A stretch of 64,000 nt of DNA from Pseudidiomarina aestuarii (GTDB lineage Bacteria; Pseudomonadota; Gammaproteobacteria; Enterobacterales; Alteromonadaceae). The position numbers and the translations under genes are program-made. The stretch lies in NCBI RefSeq assembly GCF_003987355.1, contig NZ_PIPR01000001.1, positions 558,001 through 622,000 on the forward strand, read 5' to 3'. Positions 28,047 to 50,187 of the stretch are shown here, piece by piece. The notes beneath the pieces were generated by a model that was given only the letters and a program-made list of their open reading frames with translations, had not been told where the DNA came from and made no database searches. Each line of letters begins with the position of its first letter. Position 1 is the first letter of the stretch.

Positions 28047-28058
28047 GTATCCACGTCC

Positions 28059-28090
28059 TTTTCACTGTTCACTTTTCACTTTCACTCACT
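28059..28090. repeat. Heptad repeat tract, AGTGAAN type, at the ydiJ stop
   Basis: Read on the minus strand this is AGTGAGTGAAAGTGAA followed by AGTGAAC and AGTGAAA units, about four copies of a 7-nt repeat. The last codons of ydiJ (S-E-S-E-K) and its TGA stop are made of these units. A similar tract ends the nitroreductase gene at 45013-45035. The unit differs from the GCTAYTR heptads found elsewhere in the window but has the same length and the same placement at gene ends. Confidence 0.65.
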
Positions 28091-33661: not shown

Positions 33662-34471
33662 ATGCGCACGGTTTTTTATATTTCAGATGGCACCGCACGA
33701 ACCGCTGAGGCCTTTGGTAAAGCGATGTTATCAATGTTTCCGTTAAAGGTGGAACATCGAACGCTCGCGTTCATTGATTCACCGGAAAAAGCCGATGCTG
33801 CCGTGAAACGCATTAATTCCGCTCATCAACAAAGTGGTGAACGGCCGATTATCTTTCACACCTTTGTCAGCGTTGATATCAAGCGCATCATTACCGCGAG
33901 CCAAGGTAGCTGTTACGATTTCTTAGATTATTTTGTCGCGCCGTTGAGCCGGGAACTGGGCATTCCAGCACAACCCAAAACACATCGGACTCACGGTATT
34001 CAAGAAGATTATGATTTTCGAATTGAGGCAATCAACTACACCCTCGCTAACGATGACGGTAGTAATATCGCAGATTATGATGAAGCCGATATTATTTTAC
34101 TGGGCGTTTCACGTACCGGCAAAACACCAACCAGCCTCTATTTAGCGCTTCAATATGGTATCAAAGCTGCAAATTACCCGATTACCGATGATGATGACTT
34201 TGAACATTTGCAGTTGCCTCGGGCACTCAAACCCCATCGGCATAAAATTTTTGGTTTAACGCTCGAAGCTCAACGCTTGCATGAAATTCGCAGTAAACGC
34301 CGCGAGGGCAGCAAATATGCGTCGATGCAACAATGTCGATTTGAATTGAATGCGGTGGAGCAACTCTACCGTCGCGAGGCTATTCCATTTCTGGATAGCA
34401 CCCGCTTCTCGGTCGAAGAAATTGCAGCGAAAATACTTAACGAAACCAATCTAGAGCGGCATCGCTACTGA
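33662..34471 (+). CDS. ppsR: PEP synthase regulatory protein (kinase/pyrophosphorylase)
   Basis: This is a 269-residue DUF299 protein that inactivates PpsA by ADP-dependent phosphorylation and reactivates it by phosphorolysis. The P-loop GVSRTGKT is at 148-155, followed by the PTSLYLA typical of this family. The N-terminus [19 protein letters not shown] is conserved. Its last two codons and stop (CGCTACTGA) already form the first GCTACTG heptad of the repeat block that follows, so the protein ends in R-Y within repeat DNA. Confidence 0.95.
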
Positions 34472-34640
34472 TGAGCTACTAGCTACTGGCTACTGGCTAC
34501 TAGTTATTGGCTACTCGCAAGATCCGATCTAAGCATTTCTAGTAACCAGTAACCAATAGCTAATAACGGTTTTAGTTACTGGCTACCCGCAAGAGCAGCT
34601 CTGCGCTTTTCTAGTAACCAATAGCCAATAGCCAGTAGCG
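34464..34640. repeat. Heptad repeat block A (two inverted elements)
   Basis: The block fills the gap between the convergent ppsR and DUF1338 genes. Element 1 (34464-34567) has a left arm of GCTACTG/GCTACTA-type heptads, a core around 34516-34540 (CGCAAGATCCGATCT...), and a right arm of the complementary heptads (CTAGTAACCAGTAACC). Element 2 (34574-34640) repeats the plan with a shorter left arm and the core CGCAAGAGCAGCTCTGCGC. The arms can fold back into a long hairpin on either strand. The first heptad lies inside the end of ppsR. Confidence 0.85.
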
Positions 34641-34647
34641 CTTCGAG

Positions 34648-35445
34648 TTATTTAGCGTTCGTGCTCTCGAAGATTTTATCAGCGGAGGCAGCCACGAACC
34701 CAGTGTAGAGCTGGTTTGGAGCAATCTCGTAGCGCTTCGCGAACTCATAGAAACAACTTGGAATCACTTTTTCCATATCACTAAAACGCACGGCAGTGTG
34801 ATCCGCCAAGGTCGATGATTGTTCCAAGAATACATCGCTCGAACCTTTGATTTCGCCACCTGAGGTGTTGAGTTGGAAGCCAGCATTTTTCAATGTTTGA
34901 TTCACTTGCTCAAGCGAATCGTAATCCGGCAACTCATTCACGTTGACCGTAAAGTGGTTCGCACGGAAACCAAAGGCAGCCATCCACGCTGCATACTCAC
35001 TCTCTTCGAGCAGACGTTCATAATCTGTGCTGCTGATTTGCCAATGCGCACCGGAATACAAGAAGTCTTCCGCAGTCACCGCAGAAGCAGGAACTTGGTC
35101 GACCAAATTCTTTACAATGCGTTGCAACTCTGGGGAAAAACTTTCCACCAACAACTCACTAATGAATATTTTCGGCAGGCGCGGATCACTGTGTTCGTAG
35201 TGTTTTGCCACCAAACGCTTTTCTTCAAAAACGTAATCGCCTTTTGCTTCATAGCCCATCGCAATGAAATGCGCGGCCAGAGCCTCTAAGCCCACAGGGG
35301 CTATATTAAAAGTGCGGAAGGCGACATGGTCATTGATGATGTCGCGGCCCTTCCCTAAAACCTCATGCACTTTTGCTGCGGAGGGAGTTAACTGAATGTA
35401 ATCTTGCCAAAGGTTCTCAAAAAACTGCATCACTGATTGTGACAT
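34648..35445 (-). CDS. DUF1338 family protein, possible 2-oxoadipate dioxygenase/decarboxylase relative
   Basis: This is a 265-residue protein of the DUF1338 family, the family of P. putida HglS. HglS is an Fe(II) enzyme that turns 2-oxoadipate into D-2-hydroxyglutarate. H40 and R44 (NDHVAFRTF) and H164 (RANHFTVNVNEL) are plausible counterparts of its metal and substrate residues. A glutamate near 209 may be the third ligand. The protein is much shorter than HglS (about 460), so it belongs to a compact subgroup and its substrate may differ. A D-2-hydroxyglutarate dehydrogenase homologue (ydiJ) lies 3.5 kb away. Confidence 0.75.
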   Translation of the reverse strand: MSQSVMQFFENLWQDYIQLTPSAAKVHEVLGKGRDIINDHVAFRTFNIAPVGLEALAAHFIAMGYEAKGDYVFEEKRLVAKHYEHSDPRLPKIFISELLVESFSPELQRIVKNLVDQVPASAVTAEDFLYSGAHWQISSTDYERLLEESEYAAWMAAFGFRANHFTVNVNELPDYDSLEQVNQTLKNAGFQLNTSGGEIKGSSDVFLEQSSTLADHTAVRFSDMEKVIPSCFYEFAKRYEIAPNQLYTGFVAASADKIFESTNAK

Positions 35446-35480
35446 AGACTGCTATAACCTCGAAACTGTCGACGATAAAC

Positions 35481-36839
35481 TTAACCACGGCCATTGCGTG
35501 CATCACGCAATGAGTCCGCTACCAGAAACGCTAACTCAAGAACTTGATCTGCATTTAATCGAGGATCGCACTGCGTCTTATAGCGTTGCGTCAAATCGTG
35601 TTCGCTGATTTGATACGCCCCACCAGTGCATTCAGTGACATCCTCACCCGTCATTTCGAGATGTACGCCGCCAGGGTATGTTCCTTCGGCATGGTGTACA
35701 GCAAAAAATTCGCGTAACTCGGTATGAATGGCATCGAAGTTACGTGTTTTCAGGCCATTTTCAGCCTTCACCGTATTGCCATGCATCGGGTCGCTCGACC
35801 ACACTACATGCCGACCTTCAGCTTTGACTCGCCGTAGGATTCTCGGCAGGTTATCGGCTAGATTGTTGGCACCCATGCGAGTAATGAGAGTCATTCTTCC
35901 CGGCTCGTTGAGCGGGTTCAGAATGTCTAACAATCGAATGACGTCATCAGGTTCTGTTGTAGGGCCTATTTTAACACCAAGCGGGTTATGAATACCACGC
36001 ATAAACTCAACGTGAGCGTGGTCCGGTTGCCGTGTCCGTTCACCTATCCACACCATGTGTGCAGAGCAGTCGTAAGGCAAGCCTGTTAGTGTGTCAATCC
36101 GCGTCAGGGCTTCCTCATAGGACAGCAACAAAGCTTCGTGTGATGTAAATAATTGGGTTTCGTGAATCGTTGCATTGGTATCCGAATTAATCCCCAACAC
36201 TTCCATGAATTGCAGTGCTGATTGAATTTGTTCTGCTACCTCTAAATACTTTTCTTTCAGTGGATTCGCGGCGACAAAGCTCATATTCCACTTATGAACT
36301 TTATGCAGGTCTGCTAAACCACCCTGTGCAAATGCACGCAATAAGTTCAAGGTTGCCGCCGAGTGATGATACGCCTGTATCATCCGCTGTGGATCAGGCT
36401 GTCTAGCTGCGGAGTTAAAATCCGAACCATTGATAATGTCACCGCGATAAATAGGTAATTCAACGCCATCAATCGTCTCAGTGCCACTCGAGCGAGGTTT
36501 TGCATATTGCCCCGCCATCCTCGCTACTTTGGTGACCGGACAGGAGCCTGCAAAAGTCATAACGATTGCCATCTGTAAGATGACTTTGAACGTATCCCGA
36601 ATTTTGGGTGCATTAAAGTCTGCAAAAGACTCTGCACAATCACCACCCTGCAGCAGAAACCCTTTGCCTTGACTAACTGCCGCAAGATTTTTACGCAACG
36701 CACGAATTTCCTCCGCAAATACTAGCGGAGGAAACTGTTTCAACTGCTGCTCAACAGCTTGAAGTTCGGTTGGGGAAGCATAGTCGGGTTGTTGTAAAAT
36801 TGGCTTTTCTCGCCAACTCCGCGAGTTCCAATTAGTCAT
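35481..36839 (-). CDS. DAHP synthase, class II
   Basis: This 452-residue enzyme condenses PEP and erythrose 4-phosphate in the first step of aromatic amino acid synthesis. It belongs to the class II (plant/Mycobacterium-like) family. It begins [17 protein letters not shown] and has [16 protein letters not shown] with the metal-binding cysteine, [15 protein letters not shown], and [16 protein letters not shown]. Class II enzymes are unrelated in sequence to the AroF/G/H of enterics. In E. coli aroH occupies the comparable place near ppsA/ppsR, so the pathway position is conserved while the enzyme class differs. Confidence 0.95.
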
Positions 36840-36903
36840 GCGGTTTTCCTACTGCTTATATGAAAACACCAATGTACCGATTTACGGCGCTTGTTACAAC
36901 GCT

Positions 36904-37779
36904 TTAACGGCTATTTTCAAGCGCTTGAATACGTTTTTCGAGCGGCGGATGACTCATAAATAATTCACTGAACGAACGTTTGCTTTGTATCCCAAATGCC
37001 ATCATAGTGCCATCCAAAGTAGATTCCTGTGACCTCTGTAACCGCCGCAAAGCTGCAATCATTTTGTGTCGACCAACGAGAGCAGCGGATCCGCTGTCTG
37101 CGCGGAATTCACGTTGCCGTGAAAACCACATCACGATAATACTGGCCAAGATTCCAAAGACCACCTCAAGTACCATCACGATGCCAAAATAAGCGAAACC
37201 ACCGAGTCCCTGTCCCTCGGAATTGTTGCCACGTAATGCATTGTTAATAGCTCCAGCAATCACGCGGGCAATAAAAATCACGAAAGTATTCACTACACCT
37301 TGGATAAGCGTCAACGTGACCATATCGCCATTGGCGATGTGACTGACTTCATGCGCTAATACTGCTTCGACTTCATCTTCACTCATCGCGCGCATCAAAC
37401 CGGTGCTGACTGCCACTAACGAACTGCGTTTACTGGCTCCGGTGGCAAAAGCATTGGGCTCCGGTGAGTCGTAAATTGCCACTTCGGGCATCGGAATACC
37501 GGCTTTGCGGCTCTGTTCTTCAACTTTCCGCAGTAACCATGCTTCGGTGTTGTTACGTGGTTGCGTGATCACATGTGCACCCACTGAACGCTTTGCTAAC
37601 CATTTCGATAGAAACAGCGAGATGAATGCACCACCAAAACCAAACAGCGCAGCAAAGATCAGCAAGCCTTGGTAACCCGATGGATCCAAGCCAAAGGCCG
37701 GCATGATCAAATTCATGACTACACCAAACACCACCAAAATAGCCAAGTTTGTGGCTAAAAATAAAACAATACGCAACAT
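36904..37779 (-). CDS. htpX: Membrane protease HtpX
   Basis: This is a 291-residue zinc metalloprotease of the inner membrane, involved in quality control of membrane proteins. ATG 37779 ([17 protein letters not shown]) has GAGGACG upstream. The frame extends 18 codons further without support. Two N-terminal helices (4-25 and 38-58) precede the zinc motif H143-E-V-S-H147. Two more helices follow (about 155-190 and 195-220). The distal zinc ligand is likely in the [14 protein letters not shown] segment. The gene stands alone downstream of repeat block B. Confidence 0.95.
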
Positions 37780-37882
37780 ACTGACGTCCTCACGCAAGAC
37801 AACCGATACTGAGAGTATATATGGCGATCTCAAGATAAAAATTCAATTGGAATGAAGATATTTTGTTTCGCTTACCGGAACG

Positions 37883-38082
37883 CGCTACTAGCTAGTAGCT
37901 ACTGGCTATTGGCTATTAGCTATTGGCTATTAGCTATTGGCTATTAGCTACTGGCTATTAGCAAAACCTCGATCTGTGTTTTCGAGTAACTAGTAACTAA
38001 TAGCTAGTAGCTATTGGCAAAACCTCGATCTGTGTTTTCGAGTAACTAGTAACTAATAGCTAGTAGCGAGTAGCTAGTAACC
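37883..38082. repeat. Heptad repeat block B, with a 50-bp exact duplication
   Basis: The block lies between bioD and htpX. From about 37901 there are nine or so GCTATTG/GCTATTA/GCTACTG heptads. The core GCAAAACCTCGATCTGTG follows, and then inverted heptads (TAACTAGTAACTAATAGC). A 50-bp unit containing the core and the right arm occurs twice, identically, at 37961-38010 and 38017-38066 (period 56). The bioD stop (38060-38062) and its last codons lie inside the block. Seen on the minus strand, the core aligns with that of block C (GAAAACACAGATC). Confidence 0.88.
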
Positions 38083-38788
38083 GCAATTTTGTAGCGAGTG
38101 GCGAGAACACTGCCTGGCTTTCTTCAGGGGATTCTTGGTATGCGATTTCACCCAGCAGTGGTGCGGCAATCGACGCTTTTAGGGTCGCCAGGTTTTCGGC
38201 GTAGCGAGCCATGGGTTTCGGCTGACAGGTATTCGCCACCCAGCCCAACAATGGCACACGTCGCTGTTCGAGGCTTGCTACGGTGAGTAATGCATGATTG
38301 AGACAGCCTAGGCGCATCCCCACTACGAGCACAACGGGGACTTGATGTTCAGCAATCACGTCCGCTAACGAACGCTGTTGCAGTGGCAATAGCCAACCGC
38401 CTGCACCTTCCGCAATCAATAGACGTTGTTTTGCTTGCGCGCGCGATCGCTGCGCCAGCAGCAAGGTACTTACGCGCTGAACGGTCAACTCAACGCCCTC
38501 TTCTTGCGCCGCAATATGAGGTGCAATTGCTGCTCGCAGGCAGATAGGATTGACTTCGGAATAGGTGGCATCATCCGTACATGCTTGACGAAGCGCTACT
38601 GCGTCCTCATTGACCCAACCGTCATCGGTACGCTCGGCACCAGCGGCGATTAATTTACTGACCGCACAAGGAAGTCCCTGTCGCTCAAGCTCGCGAACCA
38701 GACCGGTGGTAACGAAAGTCTTCCCAATTTCGGTATCTGTACCTGTAACAAAAATAGAATCATACTTGAGTTTTTGTAATTCATTCAT
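38060..38788 (-). CDS. bioD: Dethiobiotin synthetase
   Basis: This 242-residue enzyme closes the ureido ring of dethiobiotin using ATP and CO2. The P-loop GTDTEIGKT is at 16-24. EGAGGWLLPL and VVGMRLGCLNHALL follow as in the family. The ribosome start overlaps the bioC stop by 8 nt, so the two are coupled. The C-terminal residues R-L-L-A-T-R-Y and the TAG stop come from repeat block B, so the original C-terminus has been replaced or extended by repeat sequence. Confidence 0.95.
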   Translation of the reverse strand: MNELQKLKYDSIFVTGTDTEIGKTFVTTGLVRELERQGLPCAVSKLIAAGAERTDDGWVNEDAVALRQACTDDATYSEVNPICLRAAIAPHIAAQEEGVELTVQRVSTLLLAQRSRAQAKQRLLIAEGAGGWLLPLQQRSLADVIAEHQVPVVLVVGMRLGCLNHALLTVASLEQRRVPLLGWVANTCQPKPMARYAENLATLKASIAAPLLGEIAYQESPEESQAVFSPLATKLRLLATRY

Positions 38789-39590
38789 CTATTTTAAATG
38801 CCTTTATAAGCCCGATATTCCATTTTAATTGAATAAAACCCCGTTCATTTCGATAGGGTTCCAATGCAGCTTCAATCGCCCTCAGCCATGCGCGTGAGCG
38901 CAGCCCACCCGCTTCTCTCGCCGTATAGTTCGCACCGATACCGCGTAAATGACCAAACATGTCTCGCGCTGAGGCGTAGCAATAATGAAAATCCTGTTGG
39001 GTAAACTGAAAGTGCGTTGATTTCAGTGAGCTTAAGGCTCGCTGCACATCATCAACTTGCAAGAAGCGATTGCTATGTTGAGCGCCATCAACCATCCGCA
39101 TTACGGTTGCCAATGGCTCGAGTGAGCCAGCAAGTACCGTGGTTGCGAGCAAACAGCCATCGGTGCAAAGTGTCCGAGTCAACTCCGCTAAGGTTTGCTC
39201 TAGGTGAGTACACCATTGCAAAGTCAAATTACTGTAGATGCAGTCTATAGATTGGTCAGGAATAGGCAGTGCATCGGCATCTGCGCAAATGAACTGATTC
39301 GCCAGTGCACGGTGATTCATGCGCGCTTGGGCTACCATGCTTGGAGCAATGTCGAGCCCAAAATAGTGTCCACAGCGCTCGGCAAGATACCCGCTGGCGA
39401 CTCCAGGACCGCAGCCAACATCAAGCACTACACTGCTCGACGCCAGTGTCAATGCGTCAAATTCCTGTTGCAGTAATGCTGCGCAGTCGCGTTGAAGATG
39501 ATTGTGCTGCTGATAGCTCTGCGCCGCCCGGTTAAAGTGCTGAGCAATGCGGCGCTTATCCAATGCAAAGGTTGCCTCGGCAGCACTCAT
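38781..39590 (-). CDS. bioC: Malonyl-ACP O-methyltransferase
   Basis: This is a 269-residue SAM-dependent methyltransferase that masks the free carboxyl of malonyl-ACP to start pimelate synthesis. ATG 39590 overlaps the bioF stop (ATGA). The open frame continues 63 codons upstream inside bioF but starts nowhere sensible. SAM motif I is VVLDVGCGPGVASGYL (54-69). IDCIYSNLTLQWC follows as in BioC. ALDKRRIAQHFNRAAQSY is the family's N-terminus. Confidence 0.93.
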   Translation of the reverse strand: MSAAEATFALDKRRIAQHFNRAAQSYQQHNHLQRDCAALLQQEFDALTLASSSVVLDVGCGPGVASGYLAERCGHYFGLDIAPSMVAQARMNHRALANQFICADADALPIPDQSIDCIYSNLTLQWCTHLEQTLAELTRTLCTDGCLLATTVLAGSLEPLATVMRMVDGAQHSNRFLQVDDVQRALSSLKSTHFQFTQQDFHYCYASARDMFGHLRGIGANYTAREAGGLRSRAWLRAIEAALEPYRNERGFIQLKWNIGLIKAFKIDE

Positions 39591-40789
39591 GAACCTAACT
39601 CCACGCGCGCAGCGCGAGCATCGATTGCGGCAGCCAACACATCCACCAAATGAATCACGTCGGATGGTTGATGTGCTGCGGTTAAGGTGATGCGTATACG
39701 CGCAGTCTGCTCTGGCACTGTCGGGGGTCGCATTCCTGTGCACCAGATACCGGCTTCGCGAAGTTGATCGGCCACCCATAATGCATCAGCATCGGCACCA
39801 ATGACTATGTGTTGAATAGCAGTGGTGCTCTCAGCGACTGCTAAACCGCGTTGTTTCGATAAACTCTGAAAGCTTTGTATCGTTTCGGCTAACCGTTGTC
39901 GTAAACCATGGCCCTCGGCACCAACAATGAGGTCCACCGCAGTGTGAATCGCCGCAGCTTGAGCTGCAGGGAACTGCGTTGAATACACTAACTCGCGACA
40001 ATAATTCGTTAAGTAGTCAGCCACCTCTCGACTAGTCGCGACTGCTGCTCCAGCAACGCCTACCGCCTTGCCAAAAGTTAACGTGAGCAACGGTACCTGC
40101 TCAGCACTGAAGGCTCCACCAATACTTAAGCCATGTTCACCTTGGGTCCCAAAACCATGAGCATCATCCAGCCAGAGGTCGCGCTGTACAGCTGGAGGAA
40201 AAGCAGCGTCCAGCAAGTCTTGCACAGGCGCTTGGTCACCATCCATACTGAACACGCTTTCCGACAATACCAAAACCGCCGCATTAGGGTTTTGTTGCCC
40301 AGCAGCTTGCCTCAAGCGTTGCTCATAAGCCCCCACATCGTTGTGTTGAAAACGCTGTAATCGCACCCCAGAAAGCCATGAGGCGTGAACTAATTTATCA
40401 GCAATAACGGCATCATAATGAGGGGCTAAAGTTTGCAAGACACCATGATTGGCGGCGAAACCCGTGGAAAACAGGAGAATTTGCTCACGGTTTAAGTACT
40501 CAGCTAAACACTTTTGTAAATTGCTATGAGGTTTAGTTAGGCCAGTGACTAAGGGCGATGCTCGACCGCCACTTCCATACGTCAGCACTGCGTCGGCAAA
40601 CGATTGCTTGACCAAAGGGTGATCACTAAGTCCCAAGTAGTCGTTGCTAGCAAAGTTTACAAACCGCCGGCCATCAGCAGTTTCCACGAATCGCGCGTCG
40701 GCACGAACGAATTGGGGCAACTGCCGCCAACGCTGCAGTTGCTCGCGTTGCTGTCGCGCTTGTTGCAACTGCGAGCGAATGGCGACCAT
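39587..40789 (-). CDS. bioF: 8-amino-7-oxononanoate synthase
   Basis: This 400-residue PLP enzyme condenses pimeloyl-ACP and alanine. The PLP lysine is K241 (LTLTFGKAVGVAGAAV). WLDDAHGFGTQGEHG holds the Asp and His that contact the cofactor. NDYLGLSDHPLV and GSGGRASPLVTG line the active site. The start is an ATG three nucleotides after the bioB stop, and the stop overlaps bioC. Confidence 0.96.
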   Translation of the reverse strand: MVAIRSQLQQARQQREQLQRWRQLPQFVRADARFVETADGRRFVNFASNDYLGLSDHPLVKQSFADAVLTYGSGGRASPLVTGLTKPHSNLQKCLAEYLNREQILLFSTGFAANHGVLQTLAPHYDAVIADKLVHASWLSGVRLQRFQHNDVGAYEQRLRQAAGQQNPNAAVLVLSESVFSMDGDQAPVQDLLDAAFPPAVQRDLWLDDAHGFGTQGEHGLSIGGAFSAEQVPLLTLTFGKAVGVAGAAVATSREVADYLTNYCRELVYSTQFPAAQAAAIHTAVDLIVGAEGHGLRQRLAETIQSFQSLSKQRGLAVAESTTAIQHIVIGADADALWVADQLREAGIWCTGMRPPTVPEQTARIRITLTAAHQPSDVIHLVDVLAAAIDARAARVELGS

Positions 40790-40792
40790 AGC

Positions 40793-41833
40793 TCAACTCA
40801 CTTCGTAGTAACGAACAGGTTGTTCTTGTTCAGCTACAGCATCGGCAATCACCGCCTCTTGAACAGCATCACTGTAATCTTCGTGTTGCAGTGCATGCAG
40901 TCCCAGCCGCTCAAACAATTGCTGATCTTTATCAGCCTCAGGGTTTGGCGTAGTGAGAAGTTTCTCACCGTAGAATATGGAATTAGCGCCGGCCATAAAG
41001 CACAGGGCTTGCAGTTCATCGTTCATGGTTTCACGCCCGGCAGACAGTCGCACGAACGACTTCGGCATCAAAATACGCGCCACCGCAATGGTACGAACGA
41101 ATTCAAACGGATCCAGATCGTCTAACTCTGCAAACGGCGTTCCTTTCACTTTCACCAACATATTGACGGGAACACTTTCCGGATGTGCTGGTAAGTTTGC
41201 CAGTTGTTGCAATAATCCAGCTCGATCACGACGACTCTCGCCCATACCGACGATACCACCAGCACAGACTTTCATACCCGCCGTACGCACGTTTTCCAAG
41301 GTCTGTAACCGGTCTTGATAGGTACGCGTCGTAATCACATCCCCATAAAATTCCGGCGACGTATCAAGATTATGGTTGTAGTAATCGAGACCAGCTTCAC
41401 GCAGTGCCTGCGCTTGATGTGGATTGAGCATACCCAGTGTCATACAGGTTTCGAGTCCTAAAGCCTTGACGCCTTTTACCATCTCAATCACATACGGCAT
41501 ATCACGATCTTTCGGATTGCGCCAAGCTGCCCCCATACAGAATCTACTTGCTCCCTGTGCTTTCGCCGCCTCAGCTTCTTCCAGCACTTTCTCAACCGCA
41601 AGCAACCGTTCTCGATCCAATCCCGTGTTATACCGCGCACTTTGCGGACAATATTTACAGTCCTCTGGGCACGCACCCGTTTTTATCGACAAGAGTGTGC
41701 TGACCTGAACGGCGTTCGGATCAAAGGTTTCACGATGAACGCTCTGTGCCCGAAATAACAAATCGTTAAATGGCAGCGCAAATAGCGCCTCTATTTCTTG
41801 GCTACTCCAGTCGTGACGAATGGCACTGGTCAT
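40793..41833 (-). CDS. bioB: Biotin synthase
   Basis: This is a 346-residue radical-SAM enzyme that inserts sulfur into dethiobiotin. The cluster motif C55-P-E-D-C59-K-Y-C62 is clear, and conserved cysteines and an arginine for the second, sulfur-donating cluster are in place. It is the first gene of bioBFCD and is divergent from bioA across 152 nt that hold a BirA-like operator. Confidence 0.97.
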
Positions 41834-41910
41834 GGGAACTCCTTGCTACGAAAAGGTGATGCGCTTCAAGCACGATTCTGAGTGGACTAGTTTAGGGGCA
41901 TTACGTACAC

Positions 41911-41941
41911 TGTCAACTTATTGAAACTCGAATTATAGACA
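41911..41941. promoter_or_regulatory. Candidate BirA operator between bioB and bioA
   Basis: TGTCAAC (41911-41917) and ATAGACA (41935-41941) form a partial inverted repeat, five of seven positions, separated by 17 bp. The size and position match the BirA operators found between divergent bioA and bioBFCD in gammaproteobacteria, where two short half-sites are 14-16 bp apart. The match is imperfect, so it stays a candidate. Confidence 0.4.
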
Positions 41942-41985
41942 TCTGTACACTTTTTAACCTATCTCATGACTAATCGGATCTCTTC

Positions 41986-43257
41986 ATGACCATGGACTTA
42001 GAATTCGACAGACACCACATTTGGCATCCATATACCTCCTTCAAGAATCCACTTCCCGCTTATCCCATCGTTGCTGCTGCCGGATGCGAACTGGAACTTG
42101 AGGATGGACGCCGATTAATTGATGGCATGTCGTCCTGGTGGGCCGCTATTCATGGTTACAACCATCCTGCCCTGAACGCAGCTGCGCACAGTCAAATTGA
42201 CCAAATGAGCCATGTCATGTTCGGTGGTATTACCCATCAGCCTGCTATAGATCTGTGTAAACAATTAGTCGCGATGACACCTGCTGACCTGAATCGGGTG
42301 TTTTTGGCCGATTCCGGCTCAGTATCCATAGAAGTGGCGATTAAAATGGCCGTGCAATATTGGTTTAGTCGCGATCGTCCGCACAAGAACCGGCTCGCAA
42401 CCATTCGCGGAGGCTATCACGGGGATACGTTCGCAGCCATGTCGGTGTGTGATCCGGTGAATGGTATGCATGCCCTCTTCCAAGGCAGCCTGCGCGAGCA
42501 ATTATTTGCACCCATTCCGCAATGCTCGCCTTCTGACGACTGGAATCCTGCAGACTTGGACGCGCTGCAGCAACTTCTCGAGTCGCACCAGCATGAACTG
42601 GCAGCATTGATACTCGAACCCATAGTCCAAGGTGCTGGGGGGATGCGCTTTTATCATCCGCAGTACTTAGCTGGAGCGCGTGCGCTTTGCGATCACTATC
42701 AAGTACTCCTGATTGCGGATGAAATAGCGACCGGATTTGGCCGAACCGGACGCCTCTTTGCGTGTGAACACGCTGCAATTACGCCTGATATTCTCTGCGT
42801 GGGTAAAGCACTAACGGGCGGCTATCTTACGCAAGCTGCGGTTATTACGACTGATACTGTTGCTCTTACCATCAGTGACGGCCCTGCTGGTGGTACTTTT
42901 ATGCACGGTCCTACATTCATGGGAAATCCACTCGCTTGTGCGATTGCCAGTGCGAACTTGCAACTGCTTACCACCGGTAATTGGCAGCAGCAAGTGGCTG
43001 CCATTGCTACTCAGCTGGAGCACGAGTTGGCACCAGCACATACCTCGAAACGCGTGGCCGATGTGCGGGTCTTTGGAGCCATAGGCGTGATTGAAATGCA
43101 TGACCCAGTAGAGGTGGCAAAAGTGCAGCGCCAGGCTGCAGAACTGGGGGTGTGGATCCGTCCATTTGGACGACTGATTTATGCAATGCCACCCTTTGTG
43201 ATTTCATCTGCACAATTGAGTCAACTTTGTCGCGCGATGGTCGCTGTTTCTGCTTGA
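41986..43257 (+). CDS. bioA: Adenosylmethionine-8-amino-7-oxononanoate aminotransferase
   Basis: This is a 423-residue class III PLP aminotransferase that transfers the amino group of S-adenosylmethionine to 7-keto-8-aminopelargonate. The PLP lysine is K274 ([12 protein letters not shown]). [18 protein letters not shown] and [22 protein letters not shown] are BioA signatures. ATG 41986 is followed by another ATG at 41992, and either could serve. Its divergence from bioB is the classical arrangement. Confidence 0.96.
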
Positions 43258-43332
43258 GTTGTGCGCAAAGCAAGGTAACATAGCCACTTCATTCGTTTTT
43301 TATCATTTATTCACTATGGAGTTGGTTGGCTA

Positions 43333-44733
43333 ATGTCCTTCGCTACTGTTGTCGATGTGTTATCGGGGAAAGTTGCCGTTGGTGATGAAGTAACCGTGCG
43401 TGGCTGGGTCCGTACCCGCCGTGATTCAAAAGCCGGTATTTCATTTATCAATGTGCACGATGGTTCGTGTTTTGATCCTATTCAGGCCGTGGTCCCCAAT
43501 ACCCTGAATAATTACGACAATGAAGTGTTGAAGCTCACCACGGGTTGTAGTGTTGCCATAACCGGAACTGTGAGTGAATCCGCTGGCAAAGGTCAGTCGT
43601 TCGAACTCCAAGCTACAGCAGTAAAAGTATTTGGTTTTGTTGAAGATCCAGATACCTACCCAATGTCACCGAAGCCCCATTCGATGGAATATTTACGTGA
43701 GTTCGCACACCTGCGTGCGCGTACGAACGTCACTGGCGCCGTCATGCGGGTACGTAACTGTCTAGCACAAGCGTTGCACCGTTTCTTTCATGAGCACGGT
43801 TATCTGTGGGTAGCAACGCCGATCATTACTGCTTCCGATGCTGAGGGCGCGGGTGAATTATTCCGGGTCTCGACACTCGACCTGATGAACCTACCGAAAA
43901 CCGACCAGAACGAAATCGATTTTTCCAAAGACTTCTTTGGCAAAGAGTCCTACTTAACGGTTTCTGGTCAGCTCAACGTCGAAACATATGCTTGTGCATT
44001 GTCGAAGGTTTATACCTTTGGACCCACATTTCGTGCAGAAAATTCGAACACCAGTCGCCATTTGGCAGAATTCTGGATGGTAGAGCCGGAAGTCGCATTT
44101 GCCTCTCTCGACGACATCGCCTATTTAGCGGAAGATATGTTGAAGTACGCCATTCGCGCGGTACTTGAAGAACGCGCCGACGATATGGCGTTTTTCCAAC
44201 AACGCATCGATAAAGAAGTCATCAACCGACTGGAACATGTTGCCAATAACAAATTTGTGCACATGGATTACACCGATGCGGTCGAAATCTTGCAGAACTG
44301 TGGGAAGAAATTTGAATACCCAGTGTCCTGGGGCACCGATTTGCAATCCGAGCATGAGCGTTACCTCGCTGAAGTGCACGTGGGCGCACCCGTAGTATTG
44401 AAGAATTACCCGAAAGGTATCAAAGCCTTCTACATGCGCCAGAACGACGATGGCAAAACAGTCGCAGCCATGGACATTTTGGCACCCGGTATCGGTGAAA
44501 TCATCGGTGGTAGTGCCCGTGAAGAACGTTTGGATGTGTTTGACGCCCGCCTCGCTGAAATGGGGCTGCCGGTAGAAGAGTATAGCTGGTATCGCGACCT
44601 TCGTCGCTACGGCACCGTTCCTCATGCTGGCTTCGGACTCGGTTTTGAGCGTTTAGTGAGCTACGTCACCGGCATGACCAACATTCGCGATGTCATCCCG
44701 TTCCCACGCGCTCCCAAATCAGCCGACTTCTAA
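43333..44733 (+). CDS. asnS: Asparaginyl-tRNA synthetase
   Basis: This is a 466-residue class IIb synthetase. An N-terminal OB-fold anticodon-binding domain (about residues 15-105, [18 protein letters not shown]) precedes the catalytic core. The core has motif 2 ([20 protein letters not shown]) split across strands and motif 3 ([15 protein letters not shown]) near the C-terminus. It charges tRNA-Asn. It is followed immediately by repeat block C, whose first heptad begins a few bases after the TAA stop. Confidence 0.97.
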
Positions 44734-44734
44734 G

Positions 44735-44993
44735 TCAGCTATTAGCTACTAGTTACTGGCTACTAGAAAGCACAGATCTACGGTTTTCTAGTAGCTAACT
44801 GCCAATAGCCAGTAACCCTCTTTCAGCTATTAGCTACTAGTGACTGGCTACTAGAAAACACGGATGTACGGTTTTCTAGTAACTAACTGCCAATAGCCAG
44901 TAACCCTCTTTCAGCTATTAGCTACTAGTGACTGGCTACTAGAAAACACGGATGTACGGTTTTCTAGTAACTAATAGCTAGTATCCGGTAACG
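44735..44993. repeat. Heptad repeat block C, three tandem 88-bp elements
   Basis: Three copies start at 44736, 44824 and 44912 with an exact period of 88 bp. The third is truncated or diverged at its right end. Each has a left arm of GCTATTA/GCTACTA/GCTACTN heptads, the core CTAGAAAACACGGATGTACG followed by GTTTTCTAG (itself a hairpin), and a right arm of complementary heptads (TAACTAACTGCCAATAGCC). The second and third copies are nearly identical, so duplication is recent. The block fills the gap between the convergent asnS and nitroreductase genes. Confidence 0.9.
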
Positions 44994-45012
44994 TTTTTGT
45001 TTTGTGTCTTTT

Positions 45013-45035
45013 CTGTTCACTATTCCCTGTTCACC
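45013..45035. repeat. Short heptad tract, AGTGAAN type, at the nitroreductase stop
   Basis: On the minus strand the sequence is GGTGAACAGGGAATAGTGAACAG, that is GTGAACA-GGGAATA-GTGAACA, three 7-nt units. The first unit supplies the TGA stop of the nitroreductase gene (45031-45033). It is the same heptad type as the tract at the ydiJ stop. Confidence 0.55.
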
Positions 45036-50001: not shown

Positions 50002-50031
50002 ACAGGAATTTAGTGAGCTTAAAAGCAAGAC

Positions 50032-50069
50032 AAAAAAAAGCTCGGGACGAATCCAGGATGTCCCGAGCT
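50032..50069 (-). terminator. Intrinsic terminator for the tatD transcript
   Basis: AGCTCGGGAC (50039-50048) and GTCCCGAGCT (50060-50069) form a perfect 10-bp stem with an 11-nt loop. On the minus strand it is followed by eight T residues (50032-50039). It closes the long transcription unit that runs from rluC or acpP/pabC to tatD. Confidence 0.88.
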
Positions 50070-50078
50070 CAGGGGAAT

Positions 50079-50187
50079 GGCTCAAGGGATTGAGCCGTGC
50101 GCTAACTCGATATAAGTCGAGGGTAAGATCAAGTGTAGACAATAAATAATTTATTGCTAACCATTTGCACATTTTTTGTGCATTTTT
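50079..50187 (+). other. Cluster of small hairpins between the NSS transporter and tatD
   Basis: Three further stem-loops lie in the gap between the two convergent genes: GGCTCA-AGGGAT-TGAGCC (50079-50096), CTCGA-TATAAG-TCGAG (50106-50121), and TGCAC-ATTTTTT-GTGCA followed by five T (50166-50187). The last is a weak terminator for the plus strand and overlaps the tatD stop. The first two have no obvious role. No ORF is present. Confidence 0.45.

Follow-up and report, generated by a model that had tools for sequence, protein, structure and literature searches.

Cyanobacterial STRRs are intergenic heptads that lie in direct arrays. Inverted heptads have been described in Xanthomonas, where GGGAATC heptamers form 186 arrays in X. 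campestris and 183 in X. axonopodis, with 70 and 75 convergent inverted pairs per genome, respectively (PMC4692102). These arrays are 89-93% intergenic, at mean distances of 28 nt from the gene upstream and 160 nt from the one downstream, and are mostly placed between the same genes in the two species, with variable sequence (PMC4692102). The TAACTGA direct repeats of Beggiatoaceae are mostly located just upstream of start codons in the Guaymas genome, with one inverted case (PMC4679880), and in Geobacter metallireducens tandem runs of four or five heptads make up dispersed elements, of which some were drawn as looped-back sites (PMC2700814). The spread, persistence and disappearance of REP-like repeats are poorly understood; it has been suggested that one REP class may partly replace another (PMC3686654).

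Heptad palindromes in the window and the genome

The window is a stretch of 64,000 nt from a Pseudidiomarina genome of 2.64 Mb (99.5% complete), hereafter the source genome. The initial annotation described three intergenic blocks in it as inverted elements with heptad arms built on one plan, and all three are as described. It knew of no inverted-heptad family in gammaproteobacteria, a statement superseded by the convergent GGGAATC pairs published for Xanthomonas (PMC4692102). The unit in the source genome is GCTAYTR or GTTACTR and contains no G-tract. Two consecutive GCTAYTR units (at most two mismatches) were matched 52 times in the window, with 5 matches outside the blocks, against an expectation of 3.0 and a maximum of 8 in 100 shuffles. 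Rfam models at gathering scores gave no match at any of the blocks.

Block A (34464-34640) is located in a gap of 176 nt between the convergent stop codons of ppsR, encoding a kinase-PPPase, and a gene of the HGLS family; in 19 relatives the aligned protein ends at this site are 22-76 nt apart. It consists of two plus-strand elements, the first of which (34475-34567) has left heptads at 34475-34516, a core at about 34517-34539 and inverted right heptads at 34540-34567. The second (34573-34639) has a short left arm (34573-34588), a core at about 34589-34611 that scores 16/21 and a right arm at 34612-34639, and is a 72-nt unit with 79% identity to the first. Block B (37883-38082) has its core in minus-strand orientation; a left arm of 11 heptads, some inexact (37884-37960), and a first core (about 37961-37984) are followed by a middle arm (37985-38016), a second core (about 38017-38040) located 56 nt downstream of the first, and a right arm (38041-38081) that overlaps the last 22 nt of a bioD-like open frame. 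Block C (44735-44993) starts its first heptad 4 nt after the asnS stop codon and contains 2.7 repeats of an 88-nt unit on the plus strand. Copy 1 (44735-44822) has its left arm at 44738-44765, core at 44766-44788 and right arm at 44789-44816, copy 2 (44823-44910) is 94% identical to it, and copy 3 (44911-44998), with 84% identity to copy 1 and the same core as copy 2, ends about 32 nt ahead of a convergent nitroreductase gene. As first noted, the arms vary in heptad number and whole elements are duplicated, in units of 72 nt in A, 56 nt in B and 88 nt in C.

A search of the whole source genome for three consecutive GCTAYTR units (at most two mismatches) yielded 408 matches, and none for the reversed pattern, so that the heptads are dispersed and not confined to the three loci. 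These and other matches listed, including 150 scored of 1584 candidates, define at least 75 heptad clusters; four loci with no cluster of at least four units (L179, L182, L183 and L228) were left out. Both orientations are present in 71 of the 75 listed clusters and a single one in 4, and the span of the heptads around the core is 28-248 nt. The proposal that the cores align as one family was borne out: 47 of 72 core intervals, as compared to about 0.2 for shuffled cores, agreed with a consensus, AAAACACAGATCTGCGCTTTT, in at least 14 of its 21 places, although ten of the scored elements had served to draw this consensus by eye and are therefore not independent in this test. Core intervals are most commonly 23, 30 or 37 nt long. 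Over 400 kb of the source genome, picked for its many elements, intergenic self-identity was 0.305, 0.300 and 0.295 at lags of 7, 14 and 21 nt, and 0.244-0.281 at the remaining lags from 2 to 20.

The elements are intergenic and usually lie just downstream of a stop codon, within a few nucleotides. None of the 75 listed clusters is centred inside a gene called with our home-made codon scorer, and 22 overlap a gene edge by 1-41 nt. Among elements in tandem gaps, 30 of 38 are nearer to the upstream stop, with a median distance of 8.5 nt versus 37 nt to the next start; divergent gene pairs flank 7 of the 71 listed clusters for which both neighbours were called. In P. tainanensis and in P03SST1bin.20 the density per kb is similar in divergent, tandem and convergent gaps. 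By a hand count without statistics, the orientation relative to gene direction agrees, in 16 of 22 oriented tandem elements, with the strand whose transcript would contain G-U pairs. Convergent gaps at element sites (n = 4) sum to 458 nt in the source genome versus 85 nt in P. sediminum, and tandem gaps at such sites (n = 17) to 3998 versus 2854 nt, while tandem gaps with no heptad palindrome (n = 38) sum to 3957 versus 3489 nt. Since the P. sediminum gaps at these sites are smaller, the elements look like additions.

Palindrome families in the gaps of related species

The analyses support a dispersal of heptad palindromes over the genome and over part of the genus. Three consecutive GMTAYTR units had 255 matches in the source genome; among the 394 genomes drawn from the order, no other exceeded 12, and the remaining members of its family in this draw did not exceed 4. 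Of 16 genomes from outside the genus, a single one (G039) matched search pattern R1, with a sequence that looks by eye like a different palindrome. P. tainanensis has the same architecture with GATATTR heptads and the core ACTGATGTATCGGGTATTTGTGTTTTC, the latter drawn by eye; heptad and core sequences thus differ between species while the plan stays the same.

The intergenic slots that hold these elements are common to relatives, where they are often filled by GTAG-REPs or by CGTTATT-armed palindromes. The source genome, P. tainanensis (G010), P. donghaiensis (G011) and P03SST1bin.20 (G017), each species represented by one genome, often hold elements in a common gap. We used regular expressions to assign slots between neighbouring reciprocal-best-hit genes to the classes H (heptad palindrome), R (REP) and T (CGTTATT-type palindrome), which by eye left one false R in coding sequence (348756), one H classed as empty (367136, G017) and one spurious H (369249, G011). 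Across 296 kb of alignment the G011 and G017 genomes have a mean identity of about 89%, and the flanks remain alignable. Of the slots with H in G017 (n = 25), the G011 counterparts were R (8), T (6), HT (5), RT (4), H (1) or HR (1), and never empty; H was absent from 18 of them, all of which carry a REP or a CGTTATT-type palindrome. Of the 94 G017 slots that lack H and have a gap of at least 60 nt in either genome, 70 were empty in G011. Since T palindromes are also built of heptads, some of the differences between H and T could represent turnover of the arms rather than replacement.

At the same 18 slots, P. tainanensis has H in 7, all three classes in 1, only R and/or T in 8 and no conserved gap in 2, a mixture from which it follows that the ancestral state was not uniform. 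When 17 slots along 60 kb of P. woesei were compared by eye among three species, 15 showed a difference of family, and not always in the same direction. In one G011 slot (C9:382727), a REP is nested within a CGTTAAT/CGTTATT palindrome, possibly an intermediate of family exchange. These patterns suggest that the shared gaps serve as parking places in which one repeat is swapped for another.

Alternative accounts of the filled gaps

The palindromes might function as RNA hairpins that either terminate transcription in both directions or stabilise 3' ends, with each operon end needing one and the families being interchangeable. We consider this unlikely. The closeness to stop codons and the lack of empty G011 counterparts of the G017 heptad slots are in its favour, as are predicted folds with z < -2 in 71 (plus strand) and 67 (minus strand) of the 75 listed clusters, based on 20 mononucleotide shuffles each. 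At the asnS site, where the source genome has block C, a canonical terminator (AAAAAACCAGC..GCTGGTTTTTT type) is present in 7 of 19 relatives (L098-L102, L104 and L116). Canonical terminators are also rarer in the heptad gaps of the source genome in three comparison sets (1/21, 1/18 and 0/20 versus 5/32, 5/26 and 7/34; p = 0.38, 0.38 and 0.038). However, a run of at least four T within 12 nt is present at only 19 right and 16 left ends of the 75 listed clusters, and orthologous gaps are not richer in canonical terminators in P. sediminum (2/21 versus 4/40, p = 1), P. tainanensis (1/18 versus 6/37) or P. donghaiensis (0/20 versus 5/51). Terminator replacement, suggestive at asnS, was therefore rejected as a general rule.

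Nor do the arms covary. An element's own arms pair at 17.73 of 29 positions versus 18.59 for shuffled arms, with 1998 of 2000 shuffles at or above the own value; including G-U pairs, the values were 21.22 and 21.59 (1919 of 2000), with some rows out of register in the real and shuffled sets alike. Selection on base pairing of the arms was thus rejected, the pattern being one of slight avoidance. Elements are furthermore found within the isc operon, in the hscB-hscA and hscA-fdx gaps, and between divergent genes. Accordingly, with neither a regular T-tract after the stem nor confinement to gene ends outside operons, and with arms that do not covary, the element is not a general terminator.

Interspecies homologous recombination could instead have moved whole intergenic regions together with the donor's palindrome. 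The common gaps of the four genomes are compatible with such import, and the shared gene order would supply the homology, but the swapped slots are many and separated, with flanks alignable at about 89% mean identity, so that import would need many short tracts centred on the slots. We regard it as improbable, a shade more so than the RNA hairpins.

The initial annotation proposed to look for a RAYT-type mobiliser, and such a mobiliser was not supported. The Y1_Tnp profile (PF01797) had no match in the source genome or in the heptad-rich P. marina, P. gelatinasegens and sp. 34-48-12 (the last 88% complete). That a Y1 transposase moved a diverged REP family and was then lost from the source genome is very unlikely, even though 19 of 26 genomes of the genus have a Y1_Tnp match and REPs may outlast their RAYT, as suggested for fluorescent pseudomonads and stenotrophomonads (PMC3686654). 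Where heptads and RAYTs do coexist, in P. tainanensis and P. donghaiensis, the RAYTs of about 205 aa are flanked by GTAGCCCGGCG REPs (GTAG-REPs); the longer Y1 genes of P. donghaiensis and P03SST1bin.20 have, by eye, other GC-rich repeats in their flanks. No heptads were seen next to the four Y1 genes whose flanks were read (one each in P. tainanensis and P03SST1bin.20, two in P. donghaiensis). RAYT mobilisation was hence rejected as a present driver in the source genome, and the heptad palindromes do not constitute a RAYT/REP family of the ordinary kind. A search for autonomous copies encoding a transposase in 400-kb stretches of the source genome and P. tainanensis and in 360 kb of P03SST1bin.20 was negative; these stretches contain just three distant arm pairs (338-408 nt apart), none convincing as a parent. 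Independent heptanucleotide microsatellites grown in place by slippage alone are scarcely credible: among long simple repeats, heptads are the most frequent in many bacteria (PMC4679880, reporting Mrazek 2007), arm heptad numbers vary and core intervals are mostly 23, 30 or 37 nt, but the core is conserved at dozens of loci and unrelated families occupy common slots.

Interpretation and comparison with known systems

On balance we favour, with moderate confidence, the reading of the blocks as copies of a dispersed non-coding palindrome, a REP- or MITE-like genomic parasite independent of any resident RAYT, whose slots exchange families. Copies may travel as single-stranded hairpins, the target being either a palindrome already in place or the 3' spacer of a gene, which the hairpin would enter or overwrite by copying. 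The new element would land in the loop of the old palindrome or beside it and the old arms would then be lost, so that the slot would change family and never be left empty. Each arm would grow and shrink separately by replication slippage, and near-perfect palindromes would be weeded out. Alternatively, selection on the hairpin, and not targeted insertion, could keep the slots filled. More tentatively, hairpin slots may form a genome-wide, family-neutral docking system, in which structure-driven replacement in place, with no transposase of the element's own, swaps heptad palindromes, CGTTATT palindromes and RAYT-REPs within about 10% divergence and in more than one direction. Three palindrome families trading slots among close species, one with an identified transposase, would constitute a natural experiment in which the requirement for a hairpin can be told apart from the mobility of any one repeat, and replacement is testable by resequencing.

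The elements resemble MITEs in being non-coding and dispersed with inverted termini, but no parent transposon was found in the stretches searched, nor any target-site duplication, the sites compared including no clean empty/filled pair with flanks conserved at the base level. With REP/REPIN systems they share a short palindromic form, an intergenic location, a high copy number and a frequent arrangement as inverted pairs. REPs and REPINs, however, are 20-40 bp in size with a GTAG-type foot and a cognate Y1 transposase, whereas the source genome has long heptad arms, no fixed GTAG-type foot by eye and no Y1 match, and the RAYTs read in two relatives belong to a different REP. Intergenic heptads are shared with Beggiatoaceae, in which the TAACTGA arrays are direct (PMC4679880), while the GGACCGG/GGGACCG units of G. 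metallireducens also occur inside genes and the portion of their description considered here does not mention inverted arms around a core (PMC2700814). The closest likeness is to the Xanthomonas GGGAATC arrays, with which the source genome shares tandem 7-nt units, convergent pairs and a mainly intergenic location; the Xanthomonas unit is G-rich and quadruplex-forming, in contrast to the unit found here, and the portion of that description considered here reports no conserved core, species-specific unit replacement or REP exchange (PMC4692102). Inverted heptad elements are now extended beyond Xanthomonas, and since the inverted pairs themselves are already published for that genus, the novelty lies in the apparent exchange of heptad palindromes with REPs.

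Heptad palindromes in the window and across the genome

Blocks A (34464-34640), B (37883-38082) and C (44735-44993) each consist of heptads, a core and then inverted heptads, as the initial annotation had described; the 7-nt unit is GCTAYTR, with GTTAYTR variants, and GCTAYTRx2 occurs 52 times in the window versus 3 expected. The whole-element duplication that had been claimed is seen in every block, in units of 72 nt (A), 56 nt (B) and 88 nt (C). Convergent genes flank two of the blocks: block A is bordered by the ends of a Kinase-PPPase (ppsR) gene and an HGLS-family gene, and block C by asnS and a nitroreductase gene. Block B separates two minus-strand genes, one bioD-like and one for an M48 peptidase. 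Gene names that go beyond Pfam families are our own presumptive assignments. At the block B site (37834-38059), about 790-930 nt separates the htpX-like and bioD-like genes in 18 of the 19 relatives where both neighbours were found, and on the opposite strand a further open frame begins within this spacer. The long spacer is missing from P. salinarum (96 nt) and from P. aestuarii, in which block B occupies its place. A second heptad-like wording, TTCACTR, was seen at 28058-28086 and 45010-45033 (CTTTTCACTGTTCA; TGTTCACTATTCCCTGTTCACC), either next to the main heptad family or away from it, and the SdsR/RyeB and SraC/RyeA small RNA pair at 50028-50163 exceeds the Rfam gathering scores.

The dispersed family proposed from these blocks extends across the P. 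aestuarii genome (2.64 Mb, 12 contigs, 99.5% complete), in which GCTAYTRx3 with up to 2 mismatches matches 408 times and its reversed control never. A 60-nt model of the core with two heptads on each side gave at least 161 matches, with 150 of 1584 candidates scored and both strands of palindromes counted. Among the matches listed (59 stretches and the window) there are at least 75 clusters of four or more units each, 71 of them with heptads in both orientations. None of these 75 has its midpoint inside a called gene, while 22 overlap a gene's edge by 1-41 nt; among 2685 coding windows (120 nt each) from a 400-kb stretch, a single one showed the heptad signature. The flanking genes of the listed clusters are convergent in 26 cases, co-directional in 38 and divergent in 7, the other 4 lying at a contig or locus edge. 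The upstream stop is nearer in 30 of the 38 co-directional gaps (median 8.5 nt, versus 37 nt to the next start), and a stop is no more than 30 nt away from 55 of the 64 clusters in convergent or co-directional gaps. Element density per kb is highest in convergent gaps (3.17), followed by tandem (1.11) and divergent gaps (0.83). Since orthologous gaps without an element are shorter than element-bearing ones, the heptad palindromes look like additions to gaps.

Near-identical elements, preceded by nearly the same sequence, are located close to three contig ends (loci L178:315-382, L227:148-215 and L230:148-215), probably downstream of rRNA operons. The genome also holds 12 period-6 arrays.

Copies share a core and their arms vary independently

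The initial annotation regarded the blocks as copies of one element and not independent slippage tracts. Among the matches listed, 47 of 72 core intervals agree with AAAACACAGATCTGCGCTTTT in at least 14 of 21 positions, against about 0.2 intervals expected from shuffled cores; the copies thus share a core and are not separate slippage tracts. Ten elements served to draw up the consensus and so match it by construction, which does not apply to the other matching copies. Core intervals are most often 23, 30 or 37 nt long, that is, in steps of 7. In 45 copies aligned on the core, pairing between the two arms of a copy comes to 17.73 of 29 positions versus 18.59 for shuffled partners, and arm covariation is absent, with 1998 of 2000 shuffles equalling or exceeding the own-arm pairing. 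Each arm therefore evolves on its own, and full complementarity between the two is avoided, which would be expected given the instability of long perfect palindromes.

Carriers in the genus, terminators and a candidate mobiliser

GMTAYTRx3 with at most one mismatch is present in 14 of 26 genomes of the genus (reversed control 0), with 20 to 290 matches in 11 and a single match in 3; in a set of 394 genomes from the order, P. aestuarii ranks first and the second-ranked genome has 12. Carriers are patchy on a one-gene asnS tree, on which P. aestuarii groups with the non-carrier P. mangrovi at a support (94/83) below the tool's star level. By eye, copies in P. tainanensis have GATATTR arms and the core ACTGATGTATCGGGTATTTGTGTTTTC, whose end TGTGTTTTC is common to the reverse complement of the P. 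aestuarii core. Intergenic self-identity at lag 7, measured over 400-kb stretches, shows a clear excess in P. aestuarii (0.305), a smaller one in P. tainanensis (0.289, with lags other than multiples of 7 reaching 0.280), no distinct one in P. donghaiensis (0.277, equal to lag 3) and none in P. sediminum (0.263). Despite this absence, P. sediminum has 11 period-7 arrays, 9 of CGTTATT type. With no GMTAYTRx3 matches, it carries inverted CGTTATT heptad pairs whose centre spans roughly 70-90 nt, at G005:C1:492384-492520 (L307) and 538623-538760 (L309).

A role as terminators is suggested by the asnS slot, where 7 of 19 relatives have a canonical terminator instead of block C. This case is not repeated in the orthologous gaps of P. 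sediminum (2 of 21 heptad slots versus 4 of 40 others), and T-runs follow the arms at 19/75 and 16/75 ends of the clusters among the matches listed, so we reject the reading as a general one. It is also opposed by heptad palindromes interrupting the isc operon between hscB, hscA and fdx (L254, G000:C1:1296305-1298398; genes recognised from translations), and, in P. tainanensis and P03SST1bin.20, by element densities that are similar whether the gap is divergent, tandem or convergent. The hscA-fdx gap holds REPs in P. donghaiensis and P. woesei.

A RAYT-type transposase, which the initial annotation had proposed to look for, was rejected as the present mobiliser in P. aestuarii, since PF01797 has no match there and, in P. 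tainanensis and P. donghaiensis, the RAYTs of roughly 205 aa have GTAGCCCGGCG REPs on their flanks; genomes with a match to the domain number 19 of the 26 in the genus, and three other heptad-rich genomes are without one. The stretches examined held no autonomous relative of the heptad element.

Shared slots are held by different palindrome families

We compared P. donghaiensis with P03SST1bin.20 (296 kb alignment at 89%), classing gaps by regular expression as heptad palindrome (H), CCCGGCG REP (R), CGTTATT or GCTTCGCTGTTCG palindrome (T), or none (0). H was found in 25 of 250 conserved gaps of P03SST1bin.20, and the same gaps in P. donghaiensis were R (8), T (6), HT (5), RT (4), H (1) and HR (1), with none of class 0. 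Where P03SST1bin.20 lacked H and either gap was at least 60 nt, P. donghaiensis was of class 0 in 70 of 94. At 18 of the H slots P. donghaiensis lacked H, and all 18 contained R or T; in P. tainanensis these slots were H (7), HRT (1), R and/or T (8) or not conserved (2).

In a 60-kb piece of P. woesei with 17 slots classed as occupied in either of the other two species, the palindrome family differed among the three at 15 slots by eye, the exceptions being a false call in coding sequence (348756) and a slot that is R/T-like throughout (354092). Seven were R in P. donghaiensis and P. woesei and H in P03SST1bin.20, three were H in P03SST1bin.20 and P. woesei and T in P. donghaiensis (both by eye), and the other 5 showed further patterns, including a REP inside a T palindrome. 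With P. woesei as outgroup, a position starred on the asnS tree, the simplest readings are that R became H in the P03SST1bin.20 lineage and that H became T in the P. donghaiensis lineage. At slot 336966, between near-identical outer flanks, two species carry a T palindrome on the inside and the third an H one, and at several slots the stop codon is TAG from the REP and TAA from the heptad element. The nested REP (CACCCGGCGTGAAACGCCGGGCTAC) lies within a CGTTAAT/CGTTATT heptad palindrome at G011:C9:382727 (L292), likewise in P. woesei, and is possibly an intermediate of slot exchange.

The family differences could possibly represent sorting of older variation. Under slot exchange, hairpins would spread into existing palindromes or 3' spacers, the previous occupant would then be lost, and the heptads may slip. 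It has been suggested that old REP variants may partly give way to new ones (PMC3686654). Our literature search, weak for this genus, brought up no description of these Pseudidiomarina elements among the papers listed, and a term search of PMC3733652 and PMC12306157 found no mention of Idiomarina. The closest known system is the GGGAATC repeats of Xanthomonas (PMC4692102), which are intergenic inverted heptad pairs near upstream gene ends, most of them flanked by the same pair of genes in two species and with extensive sequence variation.
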